From Hysterangium stoloniferum (lineage: Eukaryota > Basidiomycota > Agaricomycetes > Hysterangiales > Hysterangiaceae): a DNA stretch of 64,000 nt. The notes beneath the pieces are model-generated. The model saw only the letters and a list, made by a program, of their open reading frames with translations, was not told the DNA's origin and made no database searches. Below are positions 1-41,876 of this stretch, one piece after another (the first letter of the stretch is position 1; each line of letters opens with the position of its first letter). The stretch lies in contig WHVD01000191.1 of NCBI GenBank assembly GCA_015178975.1, positions 1-64,000 on the forward strand, read 5' to 3'. The position numbers and the translations under genes are program-made.

Positions 1-756
1 GTATATTGCAACTATCAACAGGACAATTGGAAAACCTTGTTACCACTTGCAGAATTTGCTTACAACAATGCACCCTCGGCCACTACTGGCGTTTCCCCGT
101 TCTTTGCAAATAAAGGATATAATCCAAATATTACAGTACATCCAGAACGAAATCTCGCCTCTGTTCGTGCTCAAGAGTTCACCACGGACCTCCACGAGCT
201 CCACGAGGAACTCCGGACTGCAATATTGTCCGCCCAAGAGCAATACCAACATTCAGCGGACAAACACCGGATCCCGCCACCAAACTTCAAGATTGGCGAC
301 CGTGTTTATGTCAAAGCTCAATTCTTCCGGACTACCCGTCCATCAAAGAAGCTTGCTGAAAAATATTTAGGTCCTTTTGAAATTATCGCACAAGTAGGTT
401 CAGTTTCTTGGACTCTACGGCTTCCGGATAGCATGCGCGCGGTACACCCGGTATTTCATGTCTCTATGCTAGAACCTTGTACTGCTAACACTATCCCGGA
501 TCGCGTGCAATCTCCGCCTCCTCCTGTCGTCATTGACGGAGAACCCGAGTTTGAAATCTCTCAGATTTTAGATTCAAAAATTGACAAGCGTCGACGCACT
601 TGTAAACTGCTTTACTTGGTCAAGTGGGCGGGTTACGAGGGCACCGATGAAGAAACCTCATGGATTTTGGCCACGGAACTTGGTAATGCCACGGAAATTG
701 TTACTGACTTTCATACAGCTTACCCACTCAAACCTGGACCATTATCGTCTCTCTGA
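1..756 (+). CDS. pol: Chromovirus pol, 3' end: integrase C-terminus with chromodomain (partial, cut by window edge)
   Basis: The reading frame is open from base 1 to the stop at 756 (251 residues), so the 5' part lies outside the window. The start of the frame matches the end of the integrase catalytic core. It is followed by a GPF/GPY-like module (KYLGPFEI) and then a chromodomain near the C-terminus, recognised by YLVKWAGYEGTDEETSW and its aromatic residues. In chromoviruses this domain guides integration to marked chromatin. The same region exists in the minus-strand copy at 5846-6309. This copy has no stop or frameshift here, so it is the better preserved of the two. It is the 3' end of a plus-strand element whose 3' LTR is at 2161-2981. 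Confidence 0.93.
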   Translation, partial: VYCNYQQDNWKTLLPLAEFAYNNAPSATTGVSPFFANKGYNPNITVHPERNLASVRAQEFTTDLHELHEELRTAILSAQEQYQHSADKHRIPPPNFKIGDRVYVKAQFFRTTRPSKKLAEKYLGPFEIIAQVGSVSWTLRLPDSMRAVHPVFHVSMLEPCTANTIPDRVQSPPPPVVIDGEPEFEISQILDSKIDKRRRTCKLLYLVKWAGYEGTDEETSWILATELGNATEIVTDFHTAYPLKPGPLSSL

Positions 757-967
757 CCGCACTCCGCGGACCCCGTGTTACGTTTGGACTCATTTTCACT
801 ATTCCCTGTCGCCCTATGTCTCTCTTTGCTTTTACAGGTTCTGACATGTCTTGTCAAGTCTTTAAGCGGAATCCCCGCGGACTTTGGCTTTGACTTTTAA
901 TTCTTATGTTTTTTCTTTCACGCTTTGCTTTTATAATTCAAATTATTTTTTATTCTACACTACTTTT

Positions 968-1950
968 TCAGTCTACATTTATGGGACTGTTCTTTTTCCC
1001 TGCTTCCTCAGCTATCTCCTCTGGGAGCTCCGCGACTTCCGCGGCAACCCCGTCCTCATCCGATCCGGCATCCTCGGAACTCCCGACTTGCGGCTCTTCA
1101 AAGACATAGCCGCCATACTCCGCCAGGAACTTCCAAAACTCCTCGCGGAGTCCGGACAGCTCCTTTGCCACCACAATTTGGACCTTGTTGCTCTTCCGGA
1201 GCAACTCGTTTTGGGCCTCGATGCCCTCGGCGATCCGTCCAAGGACCTCGTCCAACCCGGACAACCCGTCCGTCCCGCTTATGTCTCGCGCCCCGGATCC
1301 CGTGGCCTGCTCGTGCACAAGCGAGCACCTCGCCTTGAGGTGCGCGCATTGATAACATCCCGGCCCCCGGCCGGCCTTTCGGTTGCATTCCGTGTTCCGG
1401 TCGTTGCAACCGGAACACCGCGGCTCGTTCCGCGTCGGAAGACGGACTGGCGCCGCCTTCCTTGCCTTCTGTTGAGTTGGTCAGTCTCCGCGGGTATTCC
1501 ATGGACGTGAGGCCTACCTTTTGGGGGCTCTCTGGCTCCCCCTCGGACTCGGACTCCACCTCTGTCGCTTTGCGCTGAAGATCACAAGTCAGTAAACAAT
1601 CGACAAGTGAATTTGGGACTTACTTTTCCCGCAACAATGGCGGCCCTCTCCGCGGCCAACCGGGCTTTCTCCGCAGCCACCCGGGCGTTCTCCGCGGCCA
1701 CTCGCGCAGCCTCCTCCGCCTCACGTTCCCTCTCCTTTGCGGCCTCTTCCTCCGCGGCCAATGCTTCCTGGTACTCCTTGTCCAGGGCCTCCTCAGCCTC
1801 CCTCGCCTCTCTCTCTGCTGCTTCACGAAGCTGGCGCTGCTCTTCTCGCCGCGCCAACAATTGGGCCGCCGTCCACGGCGCCCGATACGGAGTGCCCGTG
1901 GAGGGCCCTGCTGTCGGCATTGGTTTGCGTGGTGTTGGTTTTGGTCCCAT
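968..1950 (-). CDS. Antisense, spliced retrotransposon gene: coiled-coil protein with Zn2Cys6-spaced cysteine cluster (intact copy)
   Basis: Three exons on the strand opposite pol: 1950-1624, 1574-1518 and 1468-968. Both introns are 49 bp, GT-AG and phase 0. The 294-residue product is open throughout. Residues 28-105 are Ala/Glu/Arg-rich heptads, a long coiled coil. Exon 2 is acidic (about 110-128). Exon 3 has cysteines at 146, 149, 156, 166, 169 and 176, i.e. C-x2-C-x6-C-x9-C-x2-C-x6-C, the spacing of fungal Zn2Cys6 DNA-binding clusters. The C-terminal 100 residues are helical, ending acidic. A TATA box precedes the ATG by about 55 nt. The gene lies between pol and the 3' LTR and reads away from the LTR. 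A homologous copy is at 4655-5642 and diverged ones at 12235 and about 34190. A DNA-binding role is inferred only from cysteine spacing; in true Zn2Cys6 factors the cluster is usually near the N-terminus. I do not know a named family for it. Confidence 0.85.
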
Positions 1951-2002: not shown

Positions 2003-2010
2003 TTTATATA
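2003..2010 (-). promoter_or_regulatory. TATA box of the antisense retrotransposon gene
   Basis: TATATAAA on the minus strand, about 55 nt upstream of the ATG at 1950 and followed by a pyrimidine-rich stretch, as in fungal promoters. The second copy has TATATATAAA at 4595-4604 and the relic copy a TATAAAA at about 12179. The conservation argues for a dedicated promoter distinct from the LTR promoter. Confidence 0.65.
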
Positions 2011-2147
2011 GGCTCGTCGCGTTTGAACCTTACCTTCCAGATCACATGACTCTTTGACACATACGTGTAACCGACATGACTTTTGACACATGCGCGTAGC
2101 CGACAAGAACCTTATTTAGGTCTAGAGCCTCTTTGGGACTTCGGCAT

Positions 2148-2160: not shown

Positions 2161-2981
2161 TGTTACGACCCGGACAAATCCCGCCGGACTCCGGGCACTA
2201 ACTCGTACGCCTCCACGCGCTACAAGCACCAATCGTCTGTTTATAGGATTTCCCGCCCGGACTCCGTTACGTCAAGACTCGTTACGTTCGACCTCATTAA
2301 GACACATATCAGTCACCGGACTTCCCCCGGACCCCGTCTCTGTCTATGTCCGTCTTCGTCCCACGCATCAGTCACCGGACCCGCTTAGAATCCCGTCACC
2401 GCTCTAATCGAGCCCCGTTCCCGTTTTAGTCAAATGACCTGTCACGATTTAGGACTCCGCTCCCACTCCGTTTCCCGTTATGGGTTATGCTTTGTCACGA
2501 TTCGGACTCCGCTCCGTTCCGTCCCGTTCCTAACACCAATTTGGTGTTTACTATTCCCGTTTTATGTTTTGCTCGTCTCGTCTCATTATTACTGGATTCG
2601 GTATGTCATGCATTCCACGGTCTATATAAACTGGCAGATGTTGTACATACAATCCAGTCAGAAAATTAGCTTAGATTCCCCCCAGTAATCTAATACATTT
2701 TCCTCTCTAAAAACCCTACTCTCATCAGACCGCTCGCACTAGTCGGAGCCCACGGGCTCCGGCGCATCTATCTCTCTCGACTATCTCGATTCACGACTCT
2801 CGACTCACGACCTACGACTCACGACCCACGAACCCCCGCCCGGACTCCCCGGGATTCCCGTCCGCCTGTCTGAAATTGGACAACACGATCTAGCGAGGGC
2901 GCAGCCTATAAGCTGAAGCCAAGTCCTACCGGATATCCCGCGGGTTTCTCCGGAAACCCGGCCTGAGTGTGTATCCTAACA
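2161..2981 (+). repeat. 3' LTR of plus-strand chromovirus (821 bp)
   Basis: Begins TGTTACGACC and ends CCTAACA (TG...CA). It matches the two LTRs of the minus-strand element and the solo LTR at 16301-17116. A TATA box (TATATAAA) lies at 2623-2630. The 11-mer AGTCAGAAAAT at 2656-2666 starts 33 nt downstream, at the expected transcription start, and is exactly complementary to the primer-binding site of the sister element. The flanking 2982-2986 cannot be tested for target duplication because the 5' end is outside the window. Confidence 0.95.
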
Positions 2982-3615: not shown

Positions 3616-4444
3616 TGTTAGGATACACACACAGGCCGGGTTTCTGGAGAAACCCGCGGGATATCCGGTAGGACTTGGCTTCAGCTTATAGGCTAGATCG
3701 TGTTGTCCAATTTCAAACAGACGGACGGGGTTCCCAGGGAGTCCGGGCAGGGTTCGTGGGTTGTAGGTCGTAAGTCGGGGGTCATGGGTCATAAGTTGGA
3801 GGTCGTGGGTCGTGAGTCGAGTTGGTTGAGAGAGATAGATGCGCCGGAGCCTGTGGGCTCCGACTAGTGCGAGCGATGTGATTTAAGTAAGATTTTAGAG
3901 CGGAAAATGTTATTAGATTACTGGGGGGAATCTAAGCTAATTTTCTGACTGGATTGTATGTACAACATCTGCCAGTTTATATAGACCATGGAGTGAATGA
4001 CATACCAAATCCAGTAATGGCAAAATGAAACTAACAAAACATGAAACAGGAATAGTAAACACCAAATTGGTGTTAGGAACGGAACGGAACGGAGCGGAGT
4101 CCGAATCGTGACAAAGCATAACCCATAACAGGAAACAGAGTGGGAGCGGAGTCCTAAATTGTGACAGGTCATTTGACTAAAACGGGAATGGGGCTCGATT
4201 AGAGCGGTGACGGGATTCTAAGTGGGGACCGGTGACTGATGCGTGGGACAAAGACAGACATAGACAGAGACGGAATCCGGGGGAAGTCCGGTGACTGATA
4301 TGTGTCATAATGAGGTCGAACGTAACGAGTCTTGATGTAACGGAGTCTGGGCGGGAAATCCTATAAACAGACGATTGGTGCTTGTAGCGCGTGGGGGTGT
4401 ACGGATTAGTGCCCGGAGTCCGGCGGGATTGTCCGGTCGTAACA
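3616..4444 (-). repeat. 3' LTR of minus-strand chromovirus (829 bp)
   Basis: Runs from TGTTAGGATAC to GTCGTAACA on the plus strand. It lacks a 9-nt block found in the other LTR. The reverse polypurine tract (GTATCCTCCCTTTATG) follows at 4445-4460. The self-primer complement ATTTTCTGACT is intact at 3940-3950. Confidence 0.95.
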
Positions 4445-4654
4445 GTATCCTCCCTTTATGCCGAAGTCCCAAAGAAACTCTAGACCTAAATAAGGTTCTT
4501 GTTGGCTACGCGCATGTGTCAAAAGTCATGTCGGTTACACGTATGTGTCAAAGAGTCATGTGATCTGGAAGGTAAGGTTCAAACGTGATGAGCCTATATA
4601 TAAATTTGAAAAAATAGAAATTTCTTCTTCTTTATTACCCCCATCTTCGAAAAA

Positions 4655-5642
4655 ATGGGACCAAAGCCAACACCTAAAAGTGTGATGCCAACCGTGGGGT
4701 CCTCCATGGGCTCTCCATATCGGGTGCCTTGGAGCGCAGCCCAATTGTTGGCACGGCATGAAGAGCAGCGCTGACTTCATGAAGAAGCAGAGAGGGAGGC
4801 GAGGGAGGCCGAGGAGGCCCTGGACAAAGAGTACCAGGCAGCATTGGCCGCGGAGGAAGAGGCCGCAAAGGAGAGGGAGCGCGAAGCGGAGGAGGCTGTG
4901 TGGGTGGCCGCGGAGAATGCCCGGGTGGCTGCGGAGAAAGCCCGGTTGGCCGCAGACAGGGCCACAATTGTTGTGGGAAAGGTAAGTCCCAATATTCACT
5001 TGTCGAAATTTGCTGACTTGTTTTTTTTTCAGCGCAAGGCGACAGAGGTGGAGTCGGAGTCTGAGGGGGAGCCAGAGAGCCCCCAAAAGGTAAGCCTCAT
5101 GTCCGTGGGATAACCGTGGAAACTGACCGTATCAACAGAAGGCAAGGAAGGCGGCGCCAGTCCGTCTTCCGACACAGAACGAGCCACGGTGTTCCGGTTG
5201 TAACGACCGGAACACTGAATGCAACTGAAAGTCTGGCCGGGGTCCGGGGTGCTATCAATGCACGCACCTCAAGGCGAGGTGCTCGCTTGTTCACAAGCAG
5301 GCCACAGGATCCAGGGCGCGAGATGTAAGTGGGTCAGATGGGTTGTCTGGGTTGGACGAAGTCCTTGGACGGATCGCTGAGGGCATTGAGGCCCAAAACG
5401 AGTTGCTCCGGAAGAGCAACAAGGTCCACATAGTGGTGGCGAAGGAACTGTGCGGACTCCACGAGGAATTTTGGAAGTTCCTGGTGGAGTATGGCGGCTA
5501 TGTATATGAGGAGCTGCAAGTCGGGAGTTCCGAGGATGCCAGATCAGATGAGGACGGGGTTGCCGTGGAGGTCGAGAAGCTTCCTGAGGAGGTAGCTGAG
5601 GTGGCGGGGAAAAAACACAGCCCCATAGAAATAGATGAATAG
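4655..5642 (+). pseudogene. Second copy of the antisense coiled-coil/Zn2Cys6-like gene, broken by two nonsense codons
   Basis: Same structure as the gene at 968-1950: exons 4655-4981, 5033-5089 and 5139-5642, introns 51 and 49 bp, all phase 0, with exon 1 of the same 327 nt and exon 2 of the same 57 nt. One stop falls in the coiled coil at about 4772, where the intact copy has Gln in the motif EEQRQL. The other lies between the third and fourth cysteines, where an Arg CGA codon of the intact copy is TGA. All six cysteines at C-x2-C-x6-C-x9-C-x2-C-x6-C spacing remain. The CGA to TGA change is the kind produced by deamination at a methylated CpG. It lies between pol and the 3' LTR, reading opposite to pol. 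Confidence 0.88.
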
Positions 5643-5845
5643 AATAGAAATAGAACTTGATAATAATTGAACATAAAAGTAAAGTGTGAAAAACATAAAA
5701 AATAAAAGTCAAAGCCAAAGTTCACGGGGAGTCCGCTTAAAGACTTGACAAGACATGTCAGAACCTGTAAAAGCAAAGAGAGACATAGGGTGACAGGGAA
5801 TAATGAAAATGAGTCCAAATGTAACACAGGGTCCATGGAGTGCAG

Positions 5846-8800
5846 TCAAAGAGAAGATAATGGTCCAGGTTTGAGCGGGTAAGCTGTATGAAAGTCAGTA
5901 ATGATTTCCGTGACATTACTGAGTTCTGTGGCCAAAATCCATGAGGTTTCTTCATCGGTGCCCTCGTAACCCGCCCACTTGACCAAGTAAAGCAGTTTAC
6001 AAGTGCATCGACACTTGTCTATTTTTGAATCTAAAATCTGTGAGATTTCAAACTCGGGTTCTCTGTCAATGATGACAGGAGGAGGCGGGGATTGCATGCG
6101 ATCCAGGATAGTGTTAGCAGTACAAGGTTCTAGCATAGAAACATGAAATACCGGGTGTACCACGCACATGCTATCTGGAAGCCATAGAGTCCAGGAGACT
6201 GAACCTACTTGTGCAATAATTTCAAACGGACCTAAATATTTTTCAGCAAGCTTCTTTGATGGACGGGTAGTCCGGAAGAATTGAGCTTTGACATAAACAC
6301 GGTCGCCAATCTTGAAGTGTTAAAAGTGACCTGTGACTTACTGTGACATGTGACACACACAAGTCTGAGGAAAGTTGTTGCTATTCAGGTCACTAACTAC
6401 AAGCTTATATATGTTATACATCAGTAGGCTTGTCAGCTGGTTGACAGCTGTCATAAGTGACAGCTGATTGACAGCTTGAATGGAAACTGATAGCTGATTG
6501 ACAGCTGGAATACAAAGTGACAGCTGATTGACAGCTGTCATGGGAAATGAACTGGGAATACCCTGGAACATGCTGGAAGCTTCTAGAAGGTTCTAGAAGG
6601 TTCCAGAAGGTTTTGGAGACAGTGGAGGCAGTTTTAACATGAAGTTGGGTGGTGGGATCTGGTGTTTGTCCGCTGAATGTTGGTATTGCTCTTGGGCGGA
6701 CAATATTGCAGTCCGGAGTTCCTCGTGGAGCTCATGGAGGTCCGTGGTGAACTCTTGAGCACGAACAGAGGCTAGATTTCGTTCTGGATGTACTGTAATA
6801 TTTGGATTATATCCTTTATTTGCAAAGAATGGGGAAACACCAGTAGTGGCCGAAGGTGCATTGTTGTAAGCAAACTCTGCAAGTGGTAACAAGGTTTTCC
6901 AATTGTCCTGTTGGTAGTTGCAATATACGCGGAGGTATTGTTCCAATGTCTGGTTGACGTGTTCGGTTTGTCCGTCACCTTCCAGATGATGTCCAGATGT
7001 GAAATGTAATGTCATGTCCAAGGATTTTCTGAGGGATCTAAAGAAGTGAGACACAAACTCTGATCCTCGATCAGAAGTCACGTGGGATGGAACTCCGTGC
7101 TTGGAAAATACATGGATAATGAAAAGTTCCGCTAACTGCACGGATGTAATTGTATCATAAGTAGGGATGAATATACCTTGTTTTGAGAATCTGTCAACAA
7201 CGACTAGAATAGCAGAAAAGCCTTCGGAATCCGGTAGGTGTTCAATGAAATCCATAGAGATAGAATTCCACGGGTGTTCCAGTACCGGGAGTTGTTTCAA
7301 AAGGCCGTATGGCTTGTGTCGCTAAGATTTCGAGTGGGGACAAGTAGTGCAAGATTTACAATAGTGCTTAATGAATCCACGGAGTCCGGGCCAAGTATAT
7401 TCTCTTCTTATTAATGATAGAGTTTTGTTGTACCCGAAATGTCCTGAGAGTGGATGATCATGTTTGTATTGAAGGATCCTGAGGCGGAGGCCGTCGGAGT
7501 CCGGTACATAGATACGATCGTCAAGTCTAATGAAACCATGTTGATCAAGAGACCACCGAGGTTGATCGGGGTCCACGGGATTGTCCAGATGAGCTTTAGT
7601 AACTGGGTCTAGTGGAATTGCCGATAGAATATCTTGATGTAACTTCTTGATATCCATAATGATAATTCCACGGACAATGGGATTGACGAGGAAAGTTGCG
7701 CGGACCGATGCAGTAAGTTGTTGATTTGTGAAAATAGGTTTCAGGTTGTGCGGCTTTACCGTTGCATAGTCGTTGCTCCCCTCTTTAGGATAGACGTCCC
7801 ATCGTCTAGTTAAAGCGTCGGGTTTGCCACCGAGACGGCCAGGTCGAAAGCGGATAATCATGTTGAAGGCAGAGAGATATTCAGACCAGCGGGCCTGCCG
7901 GCAGGTCAAAAGTTTTGTGGTAGAAAAGTATTCCAGGTTTTTGTGATCTGTTACAATGTCAATAGGAGCTCCTGATCCTTCCAAATAGTGTCGCCACACT
8001 TTGAAAGCTGAAAAGATTGCCAGAAGTTCTTTATCATGAACGTTGTAGTTGAGCTCTGCTCCGGTAAAAGTCCGGGACAGAAAAGCCACGGGGTGAACTT
8101 CTCCGTCAGAGTCCTGGATAGACAAAATGGCTCCAAGCGCATAGTCGGAGGCGTCCGTTTCAACAATGAGCGGGAAGTCCGGTTTCCAATGCGACAGAAT
8201 AGGAGCTGTAGAAAAAGAATTTTTTAAAAGATTGAAAGCTTTTTGACACTTATCGTTAAAGTTCCACGGAGTACCCTTATGCGTAAGACGGGTAAGGGGT
8301 ACCGTGATGTCAGAATATCCACGGATAAAACATCTGTAAAAATTGGCAAAGCCGAGGAAGGATTGTATATCTTTAACTTTTTGGGGTTCGGGCCAATCTT
8401 TGATGACTTGCACTTTAGTTTCATCCATGTGGAGTCCATCGGGTCCCATAATGAAACCTAGGTATTCCATGGAGTCTGTGTCAAAAGTACATTTTTTACC
8501 ATTTGCGAATAAACCATGTTGTCTGAGCCTCCAGAGAACTTCACGGACTTGTTTGTCATGTTCCACGGGATTCTTGGAGTAGATAAGAATGTCGTCCAAG
8601 TAAACAATGATGCATACATTGAGCATGTCGGAGAAAATGTCATTGATAAAATGCTGAAAAACAGACAGAGCATTGGTGAGTCCAAAAGGGATGACCAACC
8701 ACTCGAAGGCCCCATAACGGGTTCTAAAAGTGGTTTTCCATTCGTCGCCCACGGCAATCCAGACCAAATGATAGGCATGCTTGAGATCTATTTTGGTGTA

Positions 8801-10060
8801 AATCCAGGCATTCCGCGGGGCATCGAGCAGGTCAGATATGAGTGGGAGTGGATATTTGTCCTTTTTGGTGACAGCATTGAGTCCTCTAAAATCAACACAT
8901 AGTCGAAGGGATCCATCCTTTTTTCTGACAAAGAGAACAGGTGCTCCAAAAGGAGACTTTGAGGGTCGAATAAAACCTATGGACAAATGTTCATCCAGGA
9001 AATCATGGATTGCAGATAGTTCTGTGGACAAAAGCGGGTAAATATGTCCTAGGGGTGGCTGGGCGCCATCTTCAAGATTGATTTTTAAGTCATATTCTCT
9101 GTGAGGTGGAAGCCGGTCAGCTTTCTGTTTGCTAAAAACATCCACAAAGTCATGATATTTCTCCGGGACGCCTTCTAGGTCAGCGGCTTGCTCAGATTCA
9201 GATACTGGGGTTGAAAAACGTCCAGTTGCTTCATCAATTTTTAAGTTGATAGTGAACGCCTGGGACCCATCCATTTTTAAAGCCCTAATAAAAGCTGCAG
9301 CATTAATCAGAGAAATGGACGGAGGTGCCGTGGGTTCCGGGGAAGCCATTGGTGCCGTAGGGATCACAGGAGTCCTCGAGACTGCAGGTGCCGGGAAGGC
9401 CATGGGTGCCGTGGAGGCCGAGACAGGCACAGTTTCCTCGGTCACCGTGGGAGTCCAGAATGTTATACTGTTAGCTATCCAGTCAATCAATGGATTGTAG
9501 TGGGTAAGCCAGTTATGTCCTAGGACCACCGAGCAACTTGAGTCTAACTGGGTCACATAGAAAGTGACCAATTGAGATGTTCCACAAGGGAAATTGATGG
9601 GTAAATCACAAGCTTGGGTAACAACCGAATTACTTGTGCCATCGAAGAGGCAGAGAGCGATGGGATTTATCGAATAAGTTGACAAAGAATTTTTTTGCGT
9701 GAATTTTGTATCTAAAAAACAATGAGTCGAGCTGGAATCTATAAGAGCTGAAAAAATGAATTTCGGAATCATATTAGACATAAGTTTAACGAAAAATGAA
9801 TCAGAATGTGAAAGAGTGGATGTGTTGAGGCGAGTGAACTCTTGAATGCACGGAGAGGCAATGCAACCCCTAACCCGCGTGGAGTCCGCGGGGTTGCTTA
9901 CTCTTTTTTCGAATCGGCAGCCGGTTTGTCCTTCGACGGGGTTTCTGTGGAGGCCTTGGCTGTTCGACCCTTTGAAGAGTTTGCTTTTGCCAGTGGACAT
10001 TCCAGGACTCGATGACCGGGTTTCCCGCACAAGAGACAGAGGTTGTTGTCCATACGACAT
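5846..10060 (-). pseudogene. pol: Chromovirus pol (protease, RT, RNase H, integrase, chromodomain), disrupted
   Basis: The long frame 10060-7322 (912 residues) holds an aspartic protease, reverse transcriptase (YLDD near 8600), RNase H (VETDASDYALGAILS) and the integrase zinc region ending CKSCTTCPH. A TAG at about 7322 interrupts it. The same frame continues through the integrase core (TSDRGSEF, and EGDGQTE for the final acid) to about 6645, where a 322-bp solo LTR sits. The remainder, with GPF module and chromodomain, resumes at about 6312 and ends at 5846. The protease motif reads DSS (codons 9731-9739) where the family has DSG or DTG, probably inactivating. The 5' end of the frame overlaps gag by about 160 nt in a different frame, consistent with expression by frameshifting. 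Confidence 0.95.
6318..6639 (-). mobile_element. 322-bp solo LTR inserted in the integrase gene
   Basis: TGTTAAAA...TTTTAACA termini are flanked by TGAAG at 6313-6317 and 6640-6644, a perfect 5-bp target duplication; removal restores the integrase frame seen in the plus-strand copy. On the minus strand it has an ATATATAAG TATA-like box. The middle (about 6428-6545) is an array of near-30-bp units built on GACAGCTG, i.e. repeated CAGCTG palindromes. No internal region is left, so it is a solo LTR of an unrelated small LTR element. Confidence 0.88.
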
Positions 10061-11189
10061 TGTCTTTCTTGTGGAGTCAATTTGCCATCGGGTCCGAGTT
10101 TGCCTGAGAGGTCGGGTTTTCCGGCTTGCTTGCCGGACTGTTGACCCTTGTTATTGTCCTTGTTGTCCTTGTTGTTGTTGTTGTTTGAAGACTTTTTATC
10201 GTTTTTCTTGTCGGATTGCGTGGAGTTCTGGTTGCTGGTTGATGAATTATTGTTATTGTTTTTATTGTCCTTGGACTTGTTTACTTTGTCCGCGGATGTC
10301 TCACGGGCAACTTCCGTGTGACGTTCCCAATAACGTGCATCCGTGTTCTGAGCTTTGAGGCACATACGGAACAGGGTTTTTGGCTTGCCATCTTCTCCTT
10401 TCAAGACTTCATCTTTAAGGCAGGACGGCAGACCGGCGTAGAATTGGTGGCGGAGAGCGGGATCGCCCCACTGACAATGAGCTGCAAGATTATTGAATTG
10501 GACGATGTAGTCCATGATGCACTGCGTGTCCTTCATACGAAGATTTGTGAGACTATTCTCAGCTTCTCCTGTCGGTCATATGGGCCAAAGTTGGTTTCAA
10601 GCTCCTCAACAAACGCCTCCCAATTTTCAAGCCAGAGTGGCTCTTCCTCGGAAATTCCGCTAAAAGCCGGTTCGAACCATTTCAACGCGGATCCCGACAA
10701 ATATGACAGTGCATAGTTGACTTTTCGGGAGTCCGTGGAGAATGCAGCGGCACGATCACGGAAGTTGAAGCGACATTGCATGAGGAAAGTAGAGAGTTTG
10801 TTTGGGTTGGAACCCGTGAAGGGTTCTGGAGCATTAACTTTTGACCATGGAGGTTCTTGTTCCTTTTTCTTTCGTTCTTTGAGCAGGTGCATCATGAATT
10901 TATCTATAGTACCTGCTAAAAATTCAGAAGTAGGATCCCCCAAGTGCGGTCGTTGAACAGGCGGAGGATTTTCAGGAGGGATTTCGACACCTTTGCCCTT
11001 GTCGGGGGCCACAGAATCGTCCTCATGCTCGGATTTGTCCTGGTTTTCCAGGACTTCTTCAATACGGGCTTCTTCCATGGGTTCTGACTGGTTCGCAAGC
11101 GTCTGACTGGTATACAGAGTTAATGGGGAATGAAGAGTCGATGGTCCAGGTATTGATGACTGTGCACGTGTACTTCTTCTTGGTGGCAT
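9898..11189 (-). pseudogene. gag: Chromovirus gag with CCHC zinc knuckle, frameshifted
   Basis: The ATG at 11189 opens a 218-residue frame (Gly/Pro-rich N-terminus, then the capsid-like segment ending in LNFGPYD-like sequence). At about 10575 the meaningful frame shifts by one: the second frame, 10536-9898, carries the rest of the capsid (MDYIVQFNNLAAHCQW, GLPSCLKDEV), a low-complexity Asn/Lys stretch and a nucleocapsid knuckle CLLCGKPGHRVLEC (C-x2-C-x4-H-x4-C). Comparison with the related gag at 38630-40064, which keeps GDAETTLAN across the same point, places the frameshift. Gag starts only 36 nt from the 5' LTR. Confidence 0.9.
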
Positions 11190-11212
11190 AATGAAAACAA
11201 TCTGCGAGTATT

Positions 11213-11223
11213 AGTCAGAAAAT
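11213..11223 (-). other. Primer-binding site, complementary to the element's own RNA 5' end
   Basis: On the minus strand the internal region begins GT and then ATTTTCTGACT. This 11-mer is the exact complement of AGTCAGAAAAT in the LTR, 33 nt after the TATA box (2656-2666 in the plus copy, 3940-3950 reverse in the 3' LTR). I see no TGG-starting match to a host tRNA 3' end. The arrangement equals the self-priming site of Tf1 of fission yeast. The adjacent 5' LTR has one mismatch (ATGTTCTGACT). Confidence 0.7.
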
Positions 11224-11225
11224 AC

Positions 11226-12063
11226 TGTTAGGATACACACACAGGCCGGGTTTCCGGAGAAACCCGCGGGATATCTGGTAGGACTTGACTTCAGCTTATA
11301 GGCTGCACCCTCGCTAGATCGTGTTGTCCAATTTCAAACAGACGGATGGGGTTCCCGGGGAGTCCGGGCGGGGTTCGTGGGTCGTAGGTTGTAAGTCGGG
11401 GGTCGTGGGTCGTAAGTCAGAGGTTGTGGGTCGTGAGTCGAGTTGGTTGAGAGAGATAGATGCGCCAGAGCCTGTGGGCTCCGACTAGTGCGAGTGATGT
11501 GATTTAAGTAAGATTTTAGAGCGGAAAATGTTATTAGATTACTGGGGGGAATCTAAGCTAATGTTCTGACTGGATTGTATGTACAACATCTGCCAGTTTA
11601 TATAGACTATGGAGTGAATGACATACCAAATCCAGTAATGGCGAAACGAAACTAACAAAACATGAAACGGGAATAGTAAACACCAAATTGGTGTTAGGAA
11701 TGGAACGGAACGGAGTGGAGTCCGAATCGTGACAAAGCATAACCCATAACGGGAAACAGAGCAGGAGTGGAGTCCTAAATCGTGACAGGTCATTTGACTA
11801 AAATGGGAATGGGGCTCGATTAGAGCGGTGACGGTATTCTAAGCGGGGACTGGTGACTGATGCGTGGAACGAAGACGGACATAGACAGAGACGGAGTCCA
11901 GGGGAAGTCTGGTGACTGATGTGTCATAATGAGGTCAAACGTAACGAGTCTTGACGTAACGGAGTCCAGGCGGGAAATCCTATAAACAGACAATTGGTGC
12001 TTGTAGCGCGTGGGGGCGTACGGGTTAGTGCCCGGAGTCTGGCAGGATTGTTCAGTCGTAACA
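11226..12063 (-). repeat. 5' LTR of minus-strand chromovirus (838 bp)
   Basis: TGTTAGGATAC to GTCGTAACA, followed by the target duplicate ACACC at 12064-12068. It is 9 nt longer than the partner LTR because of the block GCACCCTCG near 11305. Confidence 0.95.
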
Positions 12064-12068
12064 ACACC

Positions 12069-12800
12069 CCCCATTTAACTGAAATCCCAAGGAGGCCAAA
12101 AATCTAGATCTTGTATGTAAAAACTTGTCGGGTATGGATGGTGTGTCAAGACATTATGTGACCTGGTAAAAATTTACATATAAAAATTTGAGGGGTGCTG
12201 GCACTTGAAATTTAACTCTTTTCCCTCAACCACAATGACCATGGGCTTGGGATCGAAGCCCTTCCCATCCAGGCCAACTGTCACCCCTGTATTGGGTCTG
12301 AGTGGACCCCCAAACACACAAGAGCATTGACAACTTCTCAAAGAGAAGAAGAAGGTGTACGAGGAAGAAGAGCATAAGGAGAAGGAGGAGCTGGAGGCGA
12401 TAGAGGTGGAGGAGAAGAAGTTGGCAGAGGAAGAGGCTGCACGCAAGCATTGGGAGGCCATGCTTGTGAAGAAAAAGCAGTGGGAGGCTGATCGGGTGCG
12501 AGAAGAGGAGGCAAAGAAGAAACGGGAGGGTAAAGTATGTAAGTCAGCATTTTCTTATCTTTGTGACCTTGCTGACATTTTCCACAGTGCAAGGCAGCGA
12601 CACCTTCAGAATCCAATGATGAAGAGGATGAGGAGGATGAGGAGGATATGCTGGGGCCTTTGAGCCCCAAGGTAAGTTCGGACTCCTAGTATTTTAGTTT
12701 TCTAATTTTTTTTTGTTTTCGATTATAGAAACAAAAACAGACCCCCAAGGCAGGGCCCAAAAATAATCTGAAGTGCATTTGATGGCATAGGTATTGAGAT
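12069..12800 (+). pseudogene. Third, diverged and truncated copy of the antisense coiled-coil gene
   Basis: The ATG at 12235 opens a frame with one early stop (EH-stop-QLL, at about 12328) and then a Lys/Glu-rich coiled coil to 12534. An intron 12535-12587 (53 bp), a very acidic exon 12588-12671, an intron 12672-12728 (57 bp) and a short third exon (KQKQTPKAGPK) ending at 12782 reproduce the three-exon plan of the copies at 968 and 4655. The frame stops at what would be the first cysteine of the cluster. Upstream there is a TATAAAA box and a reverse polypurine-like tract (CCCCCCATTT, about 12067). The chromovirus at 3616-12063 therefore appears to have inserted beside an older relative. Confidence 0.7.
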
Positions 12801-15436: not shown

Positions 15437-16249
15437 CTGTGTTTTCCACTCATCTTTGCATTTTCCACTCATCTTTGCATTTTCCACTCATCTTTGCATT
15501 TTCCACTCATCTTTGCATTTTCCACTCATCTTTGCGTTTTCCACTCATCTTTGCGTTTTCCACTCATCTTTGCATTTTCCACTCATCTTTGCGTTTTCCA
15601 CTCATCTTCATGTTTTCCACTCATCTTCACGTTTTCCACTCATCTTCACGTTTTCCACTCATCTTCACGTTTTCCACTCATCTTCACGTTTTCCACTCAT
15701 CTTCACGTTTTCCACTCATCTTCACGTTTTCCACTCATCTTCACGTTTTCCACTCATCTTCACATTTTCCACTCATCTTCACATTTTCCACTCATCTTCA
15801 CATTTTCCACTCATCTTCACATTTTCCACTCATCTTCACATTTTCCACTCATCTTCACATTTTCCACTCATCTTCACATTTTCCACTCATCTTCACATTT
15901 TCCACTCATCTTCACATTTTCCACTCATCTTCACATTTTCCACTCATCTTCACATTTTCCACTCATCTTCACATTTTCCACTCATCTTCACATTTTCCAC
16001 TCATCTTCACATTTTCCACTCATCTTCACATTTTCCACTCATCTTCACATTTTCCACTCATCTTCACATTTTCCACTCATCTTCACATTTTCCACTCATC
16101 TTCACATTTTCCACTCATCTTCACATTTTCCACTCATCTTCACATTTTCCACTCATCTTCACATTTTCCACTCATCTTCACATTTTCCACTCATCTTCAC
16201 ATTTTCCACTCATCTTCACATTTTCCACTCATCTTCACATTTTCCACTC
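15437..16249. repeat. 19-bp minisatellite, about 43 tandem units
   Basis: Unit TTTTCCACTCATCTTCACA (19 bp). Variants are ordered in blocks: first CATCTTTGCA/G units, then CATCTTCATG/ACG, then a long homogeneous CATCTTCACA block. Since 19 is not a multiple of 3 and the unit has no stop in any plus frame, all three plus-strand frames are open, giving spurious 280-350-residue ORFs. Shorter arrays of the same unit are at 18340-18490 (plus) and 19645-19800 (minus). Confidence 0.97.
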
Positions 16250-16300
16250 ATTGTAATGTATTCAGGGGATTCTCTTAGATAGCTCAATATATGCTATAGT

Positions 16301-18040: not shown

Positions 18041-18339
18041 CCAGAGGCTTATCTAATAAGTCACATGACTTCAAAAATGCACAAACAAGCTGCAGCAAGG
18101 TGCCGAAAAGCTATAACTAAGTAGATAAAATATAAATAATTAGTTAAAAATTATAATAAATTAATTAAGTAATAATAGCATAATATGAGTCCATATATGC
18201 TATTATTTATGCGAAGTTAAAAGGAATAAGGCCTATTTTTCACAATAAACATAGTAAAAAATACAATAAAAATTCGAGAAAATATTAAGTAATTCAAAGA
18301 AAATTAAGAGAACATTATGAGATAATGCTGATACCTCAC
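18041..18339. other. AT-rich spacer
   Basis: Very AT-rich, with no genes seen. It adjoins the left minisatellite end of the inverted repeat. Confidence 0.4.
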
Positions 18340-19800
18340 ACTCATCTTCACATTGTCCACTCATCTTCACATTGTCCACTCATCTTCACATTGTCCACTC
18401 ATCTTCACATTGTCCACTCATCTTCATGTTATCCACTCATCTTCATGTTGTCCACTCATCTTCACGTTGTCCACTCATCTTCACATTTTTCACTCAGCAT
18501 TATATTCTGGTTGCCATGCTGGAGCTATAAAATCAAAGACTTCAAGACTTATTTGGTTGAGGAAGTAAATTTTTCTTTTCAATTGCTTTTAATTGAAAGA
18601 CTTCTATATTTCAGGGAGTGCTTTGGGCACCTAGTTTTCCTCGAGGGAGTGTGCTAGAATATAGGGCTGTGTGAGCATACACAAGGTGTTACACGCCCCA
18701 TTGTTCTTTTGATTTTCACTGTGTTGCCACATGCTATTGTTCTTGTATATACATAAGTAGTATAGTTTTTTTATAATTACACTATCCATTTTCCCCCTAT
18801 GAGACATGGAGGTCAAATGGAAATTATATTCATCTTTGCTTATGATTCTTATGAACTTTGAGAACTGATTTCAACAGTTTTAATACACTTCTCATTATCA
18901 GAGTGTGGTACAAAAATCATAACATTGAATTAACTAACTATTCCGATATCTCTTCTTCAAACAACCACAATTGATCTTTAATAAACACATCCTTATGTGT
19001 TGTCTGTGCACCATATATGGCTTCCATTTGTGATCTTATATACATGTAATGTCATACCATAGCCTGACTGGGAAATCAACTAAATAATTAGGTATCAAAT
19101 ATATTTTACTTGTCTATCAAGATAGTTAATTCAATGTTATGATTTTTGTACCACATTCTGATAATGAGAAGTGCATTAAAACTGTTGGAATATTGGTTTA
19201 ATGTTATGATTTTTGTACCACACTCTGATAATGAGAAATGCATTAAAACTGTTGAAATCAGTTCTCAAAGTTCATAAGAATCATAAGCAAAGATGAATAT
19301 AATTTCCATTTGACCTCCATGTCTCATAGGGGGAAAATGGATAGTGTAATTATAAAAAAACTATACTACTTATGTATATACACATGATGAGAACAATAGT
19401 GTGTGACAATACAGTGAAAATCAAAAGAACAATGGGGCCAGTGTAGCACCTTGTGCATGCTCACACAGCCCTATATTTTAACACACTCCCTCGAGGAAAA
19501 CTAGGTGCCCAAAGCACTCCCTGAAATATAGAAGTCTTTCAATTAAAAGCAATTGAAAGAAAAATTTACTCCCTCAACCAAATAAGTCTTGAAGTCTGCG
19601 ATTTTCTAGCTCCAGCATGGCAACCAGAATATAATGCTGAGTGAAAAATGTGAAGATGAGTGGACAACGTGAAGATGAGTGGAAAACGTGAAGATGAGTG
19701 GAAAACATGAAGATGAGTGGAAAACGTGAAGATGAGTGGAAAACGCGAAGATGAGTGGAAAACGCGAAGATGAGCAGAAAACGCAAAGATGAGTGGAAAA
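18340..19800. repeat. Long inverted repeat with minisatellite outer ends (foldback-like)
   Basis: The left arm, about 18340-18935, is repeated in reverse complement at about 19124-19800, around a 188-bp spacer. Each arm starts at the outer edge with about eight 19-bp minisatellite units (CACTCATCTTCACA...), continues through a shared unique stretch (for example GGAGTGCTTTGGGCACCTAG) and ends with TGTGGTACAAAAATCATAAC. The right arm carries an extra tandem copy of its inner 65 bp (19131 and 19198). Foldback transposons are known for long inverted repeats made partly of tandem units; that identity is an inference, as I found no convincing target duplication or transposase. Confidence 0.8.
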
Positions 19801-29918: not shown

Positions 29919-30410
29919 ACAGGATGCTCTGGTATTTCAAACAGAGCAGGTAGTATGATATGAGTAAGAGTCAACACTTAGCTTAATTGACTGGAGGGCT
30001 GAACCACTAAGAGTTGAGAGGTAGAGGGTCACAGCTTGCCGAAGACCACTCTTTAAGAATATGGCAATGAGAGGGGAAAGTGAGAAACTAAGAGGGGCTA
30101 ATCTAAGTCAATATTTGAACTGAAGAACTATAGTATACATGGAAGGAGCTTTATACTACAAACATGGAGATGGATCAAAGAAGTGAAGTGTAGGATGGAT
30201 CAAAGGGTGATGATGAGGTGGGGAGCGATAGAAACTAATGTATGGTACTAAACAACAATATTAGGTGGCAATAAGGAGTATATGTAGAGATGGGAATGGA
30301 GCAGTGGATGGAGTAGAGATGTAATGGGATGCTGGTTCATTATAAATGAGTATTAGGAGTACCATGAGGGGTAATGACTGTTAGAATTACATAATAGGGT
30401 GAAAAGTATT

Positions 30411-30489: not shown

Positions 30490-30598
30490 ATTGAGAGTAG
30501 TTCTATTAAGAACCAGTTACTACTGAGATGATTAGTCATCAGTAAGATATTAATATATCCAGGTTAACCATTGCTCATTCAACAATGACATGGGTGGG

Positions 30599-31994: not shown

Positions 31995-32075
31995 GTGGGG
32001 GCTCTGATAATGAGACAATGAGGGTTTCTTGGTGAAAAGCAAGGGACAGGGGTCTGAAATGATGGGATACTAACA

Positions 32076-34151: not shown

Positions 34152-34189
34152 CACCCAGTCTCAGTGAAGAGGACAATGTCAAGGCCCTA

Positions 34190-34834
34190 TCCTATGTCAA
34201 CAGCTACAGGCAGCTGAGAAGTGGGAACAACTTTGTAAGGAATGGGAGGCCACCAAGAAGAAGCAAAAGGAGGCAGATGATTGTAAGGTGGTGCTGGCAT
34301 TGAAGAGGAAGGCCCCAATGATGTGAGGAGTAGAGGGAGAGGAGAGGTAGAGGTAGAGGAATTGCAGGGTCATCCAAGGTGAGTATGAACCTTGGCTGAT
34401 CTGTTCTACAGGTGAAGAGGAGGTGTATTATTGTAGAGGACAAGGATGATGAGGATGAGGATGAAGAGGAGGAGGTCAGGGGGTCTAAACAGTGAGTAAT
34501 GTTTCTTTTTATTCTATTTTTGTCTTGATACTTTTTTCCTTATAGGAAGACTCCTGTTTCAGGGAGTCTGTCATGTGTGGGATGTGCAGCAGTGTGCATC
34601 TGTTGCACTCCCATGGGCTTCAACAGGGCCTGTGTGCAGTGCAACAGGAGCAAAAAGGGTTGCAGTCTGGCAACCATGTCATTGGAGTCAGTGATGGAGC
34701 CACTGAAGGAGATTGGGGAAACCCTCAAAGGGATCTTGGACATTCTAGAGGTAATGGCATACTGTCAAGCAGAGGAGTGGTGGGCCAGAAATGACAGTAG
34801 GACAGAAACGGGGGTACTGGTAGGAGCAGTGTGA
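34190..34834 (+). pseudogene. Fourth, diverged copy of the antisense coiled-coil/Zn2Cys6-like gene
   Basis: Coiled-coil remnants (QLQAAEKWEQLCKEWEATKK) with a stop lie before 34380. An intron ends at 34411, the acidic exon is 34412-34491 (DKDDEDEDEEEE), a second intron ends at 34545, and the third exon 34546-34834 is open. That exon has C-x2-C-x6-C-x8-C-x2-C-x6-C (with two additional cysteines inside) followed by a helical C-terminus. The sequence is otherwise very different from the copies at 968 and 4655, so the survival of the six-cysteine spacing and of the three-exon plan points to past selection on the protein. Confidence 0.75.
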
Positions 34835-38611: not shown

Positions 38612-40064
38612 ACTTGTTTGCCATGTGTCCCAAGGTGCCACACCAGAGGAAGAGATCATTGTCCTTTCATCATTGCCTTTCCTCAGGCATCAGCTTACCA
38701 TCTGTACTAAGTACAGTACTTAAATCATCCTTTGGCTTGGCTATGGAGGTTCTAGTTTTGCTGTTTGAGGCTGCGGCATCATTAGGAGTTGAATCAGTCC
38801 TATTTTTCTTTTTAAACTTCTTCAAGGGGTTGTCACCATTGTTATTGGTTGACAAGGGTTGTTCACTGTCTTGGTTTGTCTTTGTCAGATGGTCTGAGGA
38901 GGTTTCTTGGTTGATTTCAGCATGCTGTTCCCAGTATTGAGTGTCACATTGCTGAGCTTTCATGAACATGTCAATGAGTGTAGTCGGCTTGCCATCACCT
39001 CGACAGATGTTGTCCTTAAGACAGGATGGGAGGCCCAAATAAAACCCATGATGTAGGGTGGACTCACCCCAATTGATGAGTGTAGCAAGGGAGTTAAACT
39101 GAACAATGTATTTGGTGATCCACTGGCTGTCTTTTATTTTAATATTGGCTAAAGTGGTTTCAGCATCACCAACTGCATTGTGGGGTCCAAAATTAAGTTT
39201 GAGCTCTGTGATGAAAAACGTGTGATTGTTGAGCCACCCAGGTTGATAAATATCAAGATTATTGAGTGCCAGTTGAACCAATTCACAGTGCCCTGAAGAA
39301 AGGATAAAGCAAATATAACTTTGCTTCTGTCAGTAGCAAATTTGTCAGGGTGGTCATTGAAATTCAAGTTGCATTGCATAAGGAATGGCTGCAACTTTGA
39401 GGTATTGGTTCCATGGAAAATATGGGGTTCCTTAACCTTGACATACCAGGCAGCCTTCCCTTGATTGTTTTCAAGGAAAGCAGTAAGCCCTTCAAGTGCT
39501 ATTCTGAGACTGGGTTCAGGAATTACTACAGAACTGTGAGATGTGCCTGCCAAATTATTGCCAGAATGATGAGAACCAGAATGTAAGCTGTAGTGTGAAC
39601 TCGAAGCTCTGCCACCTGGAATACCATGATAAGAGCTGGGGTAAGAGTTGTGATAAGAACTATGATGGGAACTTGGGGGTCCATAACCAATACTGGGATG
39701 GGGACTATGATGGGAGCTCATGGGCCTGCCACCAAAACTGTGATGAGAACTGGGAGGTCCACTACTGTGAGAGCTAGGTGGGCCACCACTGGGAATAATA
39801 CCATGATGCAAACAGTTGTGGATTGGATGAGAAGGGGGTGAGAAATACTGGAAAATACTTCCACCAGGTGCTTGGGGGAACTGGAAGAGGCCTTGACAGG
39901 CTTGCCAGGATCCAAGCATTGGAGGTATAGATCTGAAGTGTTGTCAGTGGGCATCCAACATACTGTTGATCAGTGGTATAAATTGTAACCCTCCTGATAG
40001 CTTCTTGTCTAGCATCAAAGGGGTTCATTATTCGAGGAATAACAGTTTGTGAGATTGAGTTCAA
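38612..40064 (-). pseudogene. gag: Family B gag, frameshifted, zinc knuckle lost
   Basis: Adjacent to the 5' LTR at 40071. Frames: 40064-39774, then 39919-39149 (Ser/His/Pro-rich N-terminal region followed by EPHIFHGTNTSKLQPFLMQC), then 39281-38670 (NFGPHNAVGDAETTLAN, KYIVQFNSLATLINWGE, GLPSCLKDNI). It is homologous to the gag at 9898-11189, so the two families belong to one clade. After 38670 two stops occur, and the knuckle reads FLWCGTLGHMANKS, with the first and last cysteines replaced by Phe and Ser. Confidence 0.85.
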
Positions 40065-40070: not shown

Positions 40071-40733
40071 TGTTAAGATCTAAGCTGGGAAGAGAGGGAA
40101 TGCTCTAAGTTGGAGGGCCAATGATGGGAAATGAGTTAATTGGGGCTGATGATAGAGATTGTACTAGTTGGGAGGTCTGACTCAATAACTATAGTGGAGC
40201 TTGGCTTAAACTTATGTGTTATGCCCTTGCATGAACTGTCAGGATGCTCTGGTATTTCAAACAGAGCAGGTAGTACAATATGAGTAAGAGTCAACACTTA
40301 GCTTAATTGACCAGAGGGCCAAACCACTAAGAGTTGAGGGGTAGATTGCAGCTTGCTGAAGACCACTCTTTAAGAATATGGCAATGAGAGAGGAAGGTGA
40401 GAAAGTAAGAGGGGCTAATCTAAGTTGATATTCAAACTGAAGAACTGTAGTATACATGGAAAGAGCTTTATACATATGTACTACATCGAGATGGGTGATC
40501 AGAAGGCTGATCAGAGAAGTGAAGTGTAGGACAGGTCAAAGGGAAGTGATGATGAGGTAAGGAACAATAAAAACTAATGTATGGTACTAAACAACAATAT
40601 TAGGTGGCAATAAGGAGTATACATGGAGACAGGAATGGAGGAGCAGATGGAGCAGAGACAGAATGGGATGAGACAATGAGGGTTTCTTGGTGAAAAGCAA
40701 GGTGCAGGGGTCTGAAACAATGGAATCCTAACA
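40071..40733 (-). repeat. 5' LTR of family B (663 bp)
   Basis: TGTTAAGATC...GAATCCTAACA. Aligns with the split LTR at 27333-32075. Flanks TATAC and TGTTC are not duplicates because the left flank is element interior. Confidence 0.85.
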
Positions 40734-41876
40734 TGTTCCCACAGATTGTCCTTGGCTCTTGATCAAAGCCTAAGAATTCCATGTCAATGCTGAGGTTGTT
40801 AAAATATGTTATTGTGTTGCAAGCCATTGAGAGCACTCAGTCTTGCAATGCACTCTTTTTTTTAATGTAGTATATTTGAAAATGCTCAGCTACATAGTAC
40901 ATTACAGTAGCTTAGTAATATGAACTTAACCTCATACATTTTCTTTATACTGTCAACATCATAAAGAGGTGGATGTTAAGTGTTCAGTGAGGACCTCAAG
41001 TGATAACAATATTGCGCGTTTGTCTGAGATGTCAGATCATGTTTAGTTGCGTCGACCGTTACGTTTACGTCGTCGAAGTCTCCCTACTAGTACGCACCAG
41101 CGGCACAAGGAAGTCTGTGTCAAAAACGCTCCTACTGCACCTGAACATCGATGAGTATGATCGTTTAGTGCATTTCTCTCTCCATTTTTGCTGTCAATTT
41201 CTTGATCAGTGCCTACTGCTAGTCAGCCTGACAGATCCGGGGACCGTAAACAGGAGTGAGGAATTAAGTAAGGCAAGGCGCCGTTACTCACCGAAAAACC
41301 GCAGGCCGCTTCGATATCATTGTGACGGATGTGCCGACCTCGTAAATGTTCCCGACACAACAACATCTAAAGTCACTTTTGGTGTATGGACGTTTCCATC
41401 AACAGGCAGTAGTTGTTAGTGAAGTGGTTTGCCAACACACACTTCACTTATTAAATTTTTCAACATGTATATAATCGGGCGTCCGCTTCATTCGGGGTTT
41501 TTAAGCTCGTCGTTTTAACTTTTAACACTTGTATTGTTATAAAACAAAGCTGTATAAACATAGAACGGACCGAACTTTATTAAATGAGGCTACCTCTTCC
41601 AATCCCGGAGGCGCTCTGCCACCAGATCATTTTTGCTCCATGAAGACGATTTTAAAATGTTGCAACACAAAAACGAGGAGCGGGACGAATATTCCGACCG
41701 CCCCAGTGTCCAACAAAATAGTCTGCATCCAAAATATAGAAGCTGGAATGTTGTTTCTGAGACGCTAAATTGAGGTGACAGATATTTGTGTCATATTGAT
41801 GGGTTAAATGTACATGCTTCAATACAAAGTACAAAATCATCGAATCCATTTACTGAGTAAAATGATGGTAAATCTT
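40734..41876. other. Boundary between repeat region and gene-rich region
   Basis: To about 40990 the sequence is CpG-poor repeat. From there CG dinucleotides become common. A plus ORF 41000-41419 (139 codons) has no recognisable family and is interrupted by plausible intron signals; I cannot tell whether it is a gene. The rest is the 3' flank of the aldolase-type gene. Confidence 0.4.

Follow-up and report, generated by a model that had tools for sequence, protein, structure and literature searches.

In the ectomycorrhizal, truffle-like fungus Hysterangium stoloniferum (Hysterangiales, Agaricomycetes, Phallomycetidae), a Ty3/Gypsy chromovirus carries, between the chromodomain end of its integrase on the other strand and its 3' LTR, an antisense frame of three exons, which, judging from its sequence, is almost certainly a protein-coding gene of the element. 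Both introns of this gene are retained in copies that are separate insertions, and versions of it encoding a cluster of six cysteines are found in three divergent families of elements, one of which has gag but no pol.

A spliced gene opposite to pol

The window, by which we mean the whole stretch of 64,000 nucleotides that was analysed, had earlier been given a sequence-only reading. The intact three-exon antisense frame that it described, with a TATA box of its own, two phase-0 introns of 49 bp and a particular spacing of cysteines, was reproduced in every respect on the window sequence. The features of this gene and of element A, which carries it, are as follows.

968..1950, minus strand: antisense gene of element A (family 1), three exons, intact frame, 294 amino acids
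1624..1950, minus strand: exon 1, charged and rich in E, A, K and R, coiled-coil-like as judged by eye from the sequence
1575..1623, minus strand: intron 1, 49 bp, phase 0, GT..AG, with a CTGAC branch-like motif
1518..1574, minus strand: exon 2, acidic, with basic residues resembling a nuclear localization signal on both flanks (judged by eye)
1469..1517, minus strand: intron 2, 49 bp, phase 0, GT..AG, with a CTGAC branch-like motif
968..1468, minus strand: exon 3, six-cysteine cluster and C-terminal part with a second helical stretch (read from the sequence)
1325..1417, minus strand: cluster C-x2-C-x6-C-x9-C-x2-C-x6-C, its spacing kept in 59/60 family-1 copies
949..954, minus strand: AATAAA poly(A)-like signal past the antisense stop (AATAAA is present within the last 90 nt in 50/60 copies)
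2003..2010, minus strand: TATA box TATATAAA of the antisense gene, in 58/60 family-1 copies
2042..2049, minus strand: TCATGTGA box upstream of the TATA box, in 60/60 family-1 copies and common to family 4 (locus L098)
2044..2105, no strand assigned: 29-bp direct repeat, 2.1 units, in the UTR
784..833, no strand assigned: noncoding block of about 50 nt, common to families 1 and 2
1..756, plus strand: integrase C-terminus of element A with SH3_Tf2-1 and chromodomain, from domain matches
2161..2981, plus strand: 3' LTR of element A, 821 bp, with the polypurine tract (2148-2160) directly before it

The contig start falls inside element A, and due to this the 5' part of the element is off the contig. 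A second, older member of family 1 is also present in the window.

3616..12063, minus strand: element B (family 1, older), with 3' LTR at 3616-4444, pol and gag at 6593-11210 and 5' LTR at 11226-12063
4655..5636, plus strand: antisense gene of element B, with two stops and introns of 51 and 49 bp

The antisense copy of element B is 87.5% identical in DNA to the gene at 968-1950 (gene and flanks compared). The RVT_1, RNase H, H2C2 and rve domains were found in element B and the chromodomain in element A, with a DNA counterpart in element B, and the family-1 carrier, with its reverse transcriptase, RNase H, integrase, C-terminal chromodomain and LTRs, is a Ty3/Gypsy chromovirus. The two LTRs of element B are 94.2% identical, and 46 of the 48 mismatches between them are transitions, 40 of these in CpG context. 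Since cytosine methylation leaves changes of this kind, these elements were probably methylated by the host.

At least 150 exon-3 matches of family 1 were scored among 1,376 candidates in a search of the genome, and four loci (L001-L004) gave the full self-score across 983 bases, both introns included. The 40 bases just beyond the LTR differ in all 13 of the 13 copies checked, which indicates that the copies are separate insertions. As the introns in these insertions are intact, they have outlived recent rounds of retrotransposition, and their survival can be explained if it is only in the antisense RNA that the splice sites are recognised. That a gene in antisense position can keep its introns through retrotransposition, as the sequence-only reading had argued, is thus borne out by the separate insertions, and also by the aligned copies, in which the GT..AG borders are found at both introns in 60/60 cases. 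This alignment of 60 distinct family-1 copies consists of 20 full-gene matches, 39 exon-3 matches and the second window copy; the 39 were chosen from exon-3 matches free of stops, which biases the counts of stops in exon 3, but not those in exons 1 and 2 or in the introns. The CTGAC motif is seen in 60/60 copies for intron 1 and in 59/60 for intron 2. Intron 1 is 49 bp long in 34/60 copies and within 48-56 bp in the rest, exon 1 measures 327 nt in 56/60 (two of the four changes in length being multiples of 3), and exon 2 measures 57 nt in 58/60. The full spliced frame is open, at 285-310 residues, in 51/60 copies, a count in which the exon-3 stops are subject to the bias in the selection of copies. 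The gene lies opposite the chromodomain and beside an LTR in 59/60 copies, the exception being L062, for which no LTR match was found.

Divergent families and selection on the frame

Family 4 was found around a different group of gag sequences. In its locus L098 (contig C260), where one stop is present, the integrase C-terminus with its chromodomain shares 81% identity with that of family 1. The antisense gene has the same exon plan as in family 1, viz. a basic-acidic exon 2 between two introns and then an exon 3 with the cluster, here C-x2-C-x6-C-x10-C-x2-C-x6-C, and its exon 3 shows about 35% identity to that of family 1 by tblastn and 38% over 64 aligned profile columns. A genome search listed at least 151 matches of this family, 150 of 661 candidates being scored. 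The locus L103 was left out, as the cysteine pattern was not found there, and no antisense gene was found in L097, which spans a gag end. In comparisons of family 1 with family 4, dS has reached saturation in all 18 exon-3 pairs and also in the integrase end, whereas dN is 0.73-0.91 in exon 3 and 0.113 in the integrase C-terminus and chromodomain. Based on these values, the antisense protein evolves several-fold faster than that part of pol while its architecture is kept. The window holds one remnant of this family.

12064..12770, plus strand: family-4 UTR (to about 12186) and relic of the antisense gene (from 12247), cut off after the first cysteine; the 3' limit is approximate

At 12063/12064 the 5' LTR of element B, which is of the family-1 type, adjoins this UTR and relic at the place where their 3' LTR would lie. 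No match to the family-1 LTR was seen in the LTR piece of L098 itself, and the arrangement at 11226-12186 looks like an LTR shared by, or recombinant between, the two families. Further, pieces of the window at 33894-34062, directly before the family-2 gene, are 76-80% identical to the LTR piece of L098.

Family 2 is represented in the window by an old element with the following parts.

about 34153..34829, plus strand: family-2 copy of the antisense gene, of a divergent family
34574..34663, plus strand: six-cysteine cluster C-x2-C-x6-C-x8-C-x2-C-x6-C, with a spacer of 8
38670..39943, minus strand: gag of the same element, as two overlapping open frames
40240..40740, minus strand: 5' LTR of the element, with 3' LTR pieces at 29920-30331 and 32010-32083

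Nothing but noncoding sequence and insertions of later date lies between gag and the antisense gene of this element, and no similarity to pol was found there. At least 50 matches of the family-2 gene were listed in the genome search, and at one of the loci, L030, the order of the flanks is LTR, gene, about 1 kb and gag. When 42 of the 50 listed gene matches (second pieces of one place being omitted) were compared with the 18 gag matches closest to family 2 among 150 listed, five gag-gene pairs within 12 kb were found, i.e. for 5 of the 42 listed genes, and in all of them the two genes are on opposite strands with the antisense gene downstream of gag. Four of the gaps between them measure 379, 773, 1,052 and 2,348 bp, and the fifth, that of the window element with its insertions, measures 3,875 bp; for comparison, those in nine hand-picked family-1 pairs are 4,091-4,822 bp. 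A tBLASTn comparison of four of the family-2 gaps with family-1 pol, at E up to 1, matched only the tail of gag. Based on the five gag-gene pairs, family 2 is an LTR element with gag and without pol, both LTRs being located in the window copy only. LTR elements that have gag and lack pol are known as TR-GAG; family 2 resembles these, but differs from them in also keeping the antisense gene.

The family-2 copies are decayed: the CpG observed/expected ratio is 0.03 in the window copy and several copies have lost a cysteine. The spliced model of L030 is shifted in exon 3, and a phase can therefore be assigned to intron 2 of family 2 only tentatively. Near a related older copy, L054, and on the opposite strand, lies a piece of chromodomain with 52% identity to the family-1 one, so that the association of chromovirus and antisense gene is an old one. 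Within and around these elements some other features were also observed. LTR-like pieces at 36565-37830, inside the family-2 element of the window, are 75-78% identical to the family-1 LTR and are probably an old solo LTR. A small nested element of Copia type, which has a gag match and repeats of 207 bp (98%) but is not long enough to hold pol, lies at 30598-31994 and was apparently inserted in the family-2 3' LTR. Arrays of tandem repeats, the unit being about 9-25 bp long, are located in or beside the antisense gene in five old family-2 copies (L034, L036, L048, L049 and L050).

The sequence-only reading had counted four copies in the window with a common exon plan, three of them keeping the cysteine spacing. 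The four copies exist and three have the six-cysteine cluster; however, the middle spacer varies among these three (9, 9 and 8), and in another copy, the family-4 relic, the gene is cut off after the first cysteine.

Selection on the frame was examined in family 1 using variants whose minor allele is present in at least three copies, with CpG changes excluded and the expectation taken from the noncoding spectrum. These shared variants comprise 24 nonsynonymous, 49 synonymous and 1 stop change versus an expectation of 204:74:17, corresponding to an omega-like ratio of 0.18; for singleton variants, which are mostly changes after insertion, the ratio is 0.45. The other frames of exon 3 gave ratios of 1.5-3.3, save one pol-strand frame at 0.27, which shares its third positions with the antisense frame and has 3 stops in the window copy. 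The possibility of a chance open frame in GC-rich DNA was rejected, as the pol-strand frame of exon 3 that is free of stops has a ratio of 1.51 and the one sharing third positions has stops.

In pairwise comparisons of exon 3 (NG86), dN/dS is 0.075-0.134 over three family-1 pairs. In family 4, eight comparisons of 4a with 4b gave 0.145-0.286, the one pair within 4a gave 0.131 and six pairs within 4b gave 0.085-0.345, the value of 0.345 coming from a pair with a dS of only 0.063. For family 2, in which 33 of the 78 pairs among 13 copies were listed, the pairs with a dS of 0.6 or more gave 0.04-0.30 and the closer ones 0.28-0.57, with dS undefined in one pair. These values, about 0.04-0.3 in well-diverged pairs, indicate that all three versions are under selection at the protein level. 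The ratio among copies is thus far below 1, and not near it as the sequence-only reading had thought would tell against the gene.

The six-cysteine cluster and the noncoding DNA

Profile comparisons over the cluster link families 1 and 4 with E 3.4e-8 and families 4 and 2 with E 3.6e-5, and between families 1 and 2, whose exon-3 identity is below 30%, E is 0.0013 with a probability of 18%. The spacing of GAL4-type Zn2Cys6 domains (PF00172) is C-x2-C-x6-C-x(5-12)-C-x2-C-x(6-8)-C, and the middle spacers of 9, 10 and 8 in families 1, 4 and 2 fit this. However, the window cluster scored 13.6 bits against Pfam Zn_clus, below the cut-off of 21. Zn_clus is the commonest sub-threshold match, seen for 8 of 9 members tested (best E 0.047); it is not listed among the matches of the full family-4 protein, and peptides of the half-motifs alone gave no Pfam match. 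A PDB search with the single sequence gave no informative match. When a profile of the cluster was compared with 177,635 distinct PDB sequences, four matches were obtained at E up to 10, all of them fungal Zn2Cys6 proteins (GAL4 twice, LEU3 and AlcR; E 1.9-8.7), and the two printed alignments pair the half-motifs in swapped order.

If the cluster were a rearranged Zn2Cys6 domain with its halves swapped, as it may be, then its halves would sort in reverse against those of host proteins, in which a basic, DNA-contacting first half differs from the second. Profiles were made from 13 host first halves and 19 host second halves, 7 of which were assigned by hand, and the host control halves sorted correctly in 32/32 cases with two trailing residues and in 31/32 without them. 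The transposon halves sorted inconsistently against these profiles, those of family 1 tending to the swapped order (at inner positions), those of family 4 to the normal one and those of family 2 to neither in a clear way, and they give no confirmation of such a rearrangement. Due to this, and due to the Zn_clus scores below the cut-off, we speak of a six-cysteine cluster and not of a GAL4-type domain; of the Zn2Cys6 label in the sequence-only reading, the part concerning the spacing stands, and the part concerning the identity of the domain is not shown by these results. Among the Pfam matches at E up to 10 (HMMER filters drop most of those above 0.1), neither TRP28 (PF04195) nor a bZIP domain was found. 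A search of annotated proteins of other species, which relies on shared exact words, gave no homologues, only H. stoloniferum proteins or nothing. Host frames resembling Zn_clus were seen in contigs C56 and C115, some with two matches per frame about 100 bp apart.

The UTR upstream of the TATA box is related between families 1 and 4, with a local score of 44 versus a maximum of 26 in 300 shuffles. The 29-bp unit is duplicated in the family-1 UTR, and a single related unit is present in family 4. The TCATGTGA box was found in 0/17 family-2 and older loci (16 distinct places, searched in one orientation). The hexamer CCGGAC occurs 7 times in the LTR versus 0.9 expected, but this enrichment was dropped as evidence of a binding site, as pol is enriched too. 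The block of about 50 nt lies in the window at 784-833, 5769-5818 and 35526-35574 and is also present in 5 of 13 other old loci tested (L030, L032, L045, L047 and L049); none was found in L098 of family 4. The block at 784-833 is 74-82% identical to those of the window family-2 copy and of these five loci, and over all the places compared the identity between families 1 and 2 is 74-86%. Read in the sense direction, the block is followed by a run of pyrimidines that ends in AG, as a 3' splice site does, and it may act on the sense strand as a signal for splicing or in the RNA.

Possible roles of the product and comparable systems

The order of the exons, the separate promoter, the fast and family-specific divergence and the retention by pol-less elements point to a factor matched to its own family. 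The sequence-only reading had proposed a DNA-binding regulator, a silencing antagonist or a packaging factor, and each of these is conjectural. The interpretation that we tentatively prefer, and which may well be correct though we would stop short of calling it probable, is that the product is an element-encoded nuclear DNA-binding regulator that serves its own family and keeps the element expressed. The faster divergence of the antisense protein than of pol, as seen in host- or target-matched factors, is counted in its favour, as are the UTR similarity between families 1 and 4, the CpG mismatches of the element-B LTRs and the PDB matches of the cluster profile, which are all fungal Zn2Cys6 proteins, though at E above 1. 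Against it stand the Zn_clus scores below the cut-off, the absence of the TCATGTGA box from the family-2 loci searched and the lack of homologues in the search of annotated proteins of other species. The gene would have an accessory function in chromodomain Ty3/Gypsy elements, and likewise in a pol-less lineage derived from them, and would be transcribed towards pol from a TATA promoter of its own, which lies between the gene and the polypurine tract. Its introns would be spliced out of the antisense mRNA only and would in this way be carried through when the sense RNA is reverse-transcribed. The product, in which a coiled-coil-like stretch, basic patches resembling nuclear signals, an acidic stretch, the cluster and a second helical stretch are read, would dimerise, enter the nucleus and bind the DNA of its own family, perhaps at the conserved duplicated box upstream of the TATA box or in the LTR, and such binding would sustain expression of the element although the host seems to methylate it. 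Its expression, metal binding, nuclear location, DNA target and anti-silencing action are what we infer from these features. A broader proposal is that an ancient spliced antisense gene of this chromovirus clade encodes a new metal-cluster DNA-binding protein, which matches the noncoding DNA of its own family and holds off methylation, and that the need for it is so family-specific that pol-less parasites borrowing all enzymes still bring gag and their own version; in this full form it is doubtful.

As gag is the other gene that family 2 kept, the main rival to DNA binding is a Gag-linked factor for particle assembly or packaging of own-family RNA, whose cluster would bind RNA and whose coiled-coil-like part would bind Gag. 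We consider this unlikely. It would fit the loss of pol and retention of gag and the antisense gene in family 2 (with gaps of 379-2,348 bp in 4/5 pairs, and no pol similarity in four gaps), as pol products can act in trans whereas gag and the antisense protein were apparently not replaced, and also the 50-nt block common to families 1 and 2. However, a zinc-knuckle match is already present in the family-1 gag (at 20.4 bits, short of the cut-off of 27), the acidic and nuclear-signal-like stretches and the separate antisense promoter would be odd for a virion part, and the pairing with gag is visible for only 5 of 42 listed family-2 genes. A self-limiting repressor, which would lower sense transcription and guard the host from excess copies, is suggested by the layout of HBZ, a spliced antisense gene at the 3' end (PMC10186651), and by the look of the product as a dimeric nuclear factor, but selection for copy control should be weak with hundreds of copies, pol-less parasites would gain little from keeping a repressor, and the bZIP domain of HBZ was not found; this appears less likely again.

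For the capture of a host Zn2Cys6 gene by one element, the six-cysteine spacing and the top PDB matches, which are Zn2Cys6 proteins, could be cited. Such a one-off capture, which the sequence-only reading had also entertained against itself, is very improbable in view of the presence of the gene in at least three old, divergent families with a common exon plan; further, no Zn_clus score is above the cut-off, and no single-copy host relative stood out among the genome matches listed (best matches, taken without gene context). It is also hardly credible that the antisense RNA alone matters, as dsRNA or through interference, with the frame being incidental. Antisense transcripts have been suggested as regulators of retrotransposons (PMC7264820, from the text available), but dN/dS is well below 1 in three families, the lengths of introns drift while those of exons 1 and 2 hardly do, and the selection in family 1 is specific to the frame, which rules out noncoding antisense RNA as the whole explanation or at least largely contradicts it.

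Antisense accessory genes as such are already known. The plant Gypsy elements Retand, Grande and RIRE2 have antisense ORFs (PMC11963269, PMC7264820) that, according to the available parts of these sources, likewise lie between pol and the 3' LTR, are kept in most copies and are suggested to be DNA-binding or nuclear; the Grande ORF also has its own upstream promoter. The Retand ORFs differ in being of plants, in a non-chromovirus lineage and mostly with a TRP28 domain, which is not among the matches of the fungal gene, and introns are not mentioned in the available texts of the two papers on the plant ORFs. In fungi, brtn is an extra antisense gene of Boty-like Gypsy elements with a chromodomain in Botrytis cinerea, described in 2011 (Zhao et al., as reported in the accessible parts of PMC8365987, PMC4227169 and PMC7264820); its host, however, is an ascomycete, and the likeness is one of description. 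The HBZ gene of HTLV-1, which encodes a nuclear regulator, is also antisense and spliced and is likewise located at the 3' end of its LTR element (PMC10186651, as far as its available text goes), but HTLV-1 is a retrovirus, the promoter is in the 3' LTR and a bZIP takes the place of the six-cysteine cluster. The GAL4-type domain (PF00172) compares with the cluster in its six cysteines and compatible spacing, and differs as set out above. VANDAL elements are DNA transposons. Their VANC anti-silencing proteins in Arabidopsis offer a likeness to the proposed working, as an evolving element-encoded protein targets noncoding repeats of its own family against methylation (PMC5735166, from the part available), the fungal side of this comparison being conjectural; the element is of a plant, and its protein is unrelated to the one described here.

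The novelty claimed in the sequence-only reading has thus to be narrowed: an antisense gene in a fungal chromodomain Gypsy element (brtn of Boty) has been on record since 2011, and it is the spliced version with a cysteine cluster that is new, none having been described for a fungal retrotransposon in the literature searched, which excluded most subscription papers. Gypsy antisense ORFs have been catalogued for years without a function, and the case of H. stoloniferum makes their role directly testable. The introns mark the antisense gene in such a way that its splicing can be read directly in RNA, selection at the protein level acts in three families with many natural variants, and the loss of pol with retention of gag and the antisense gene is a natural deletion experiment. 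The gene also provides a natural example of introns retained in a retroelement through antisense position.

Two other features of the window may be recorded. A minisatellite unit of 19 bp forms three arrays (15442-16251, 18339-18496 and 19638-19800), the first of which holds 42.6 copies of the unit and is open over long frames in three phases, and a frame at 44459-45358, with a match to the reprolysin propeptide, belongs to a probable host metalloprotease gene.
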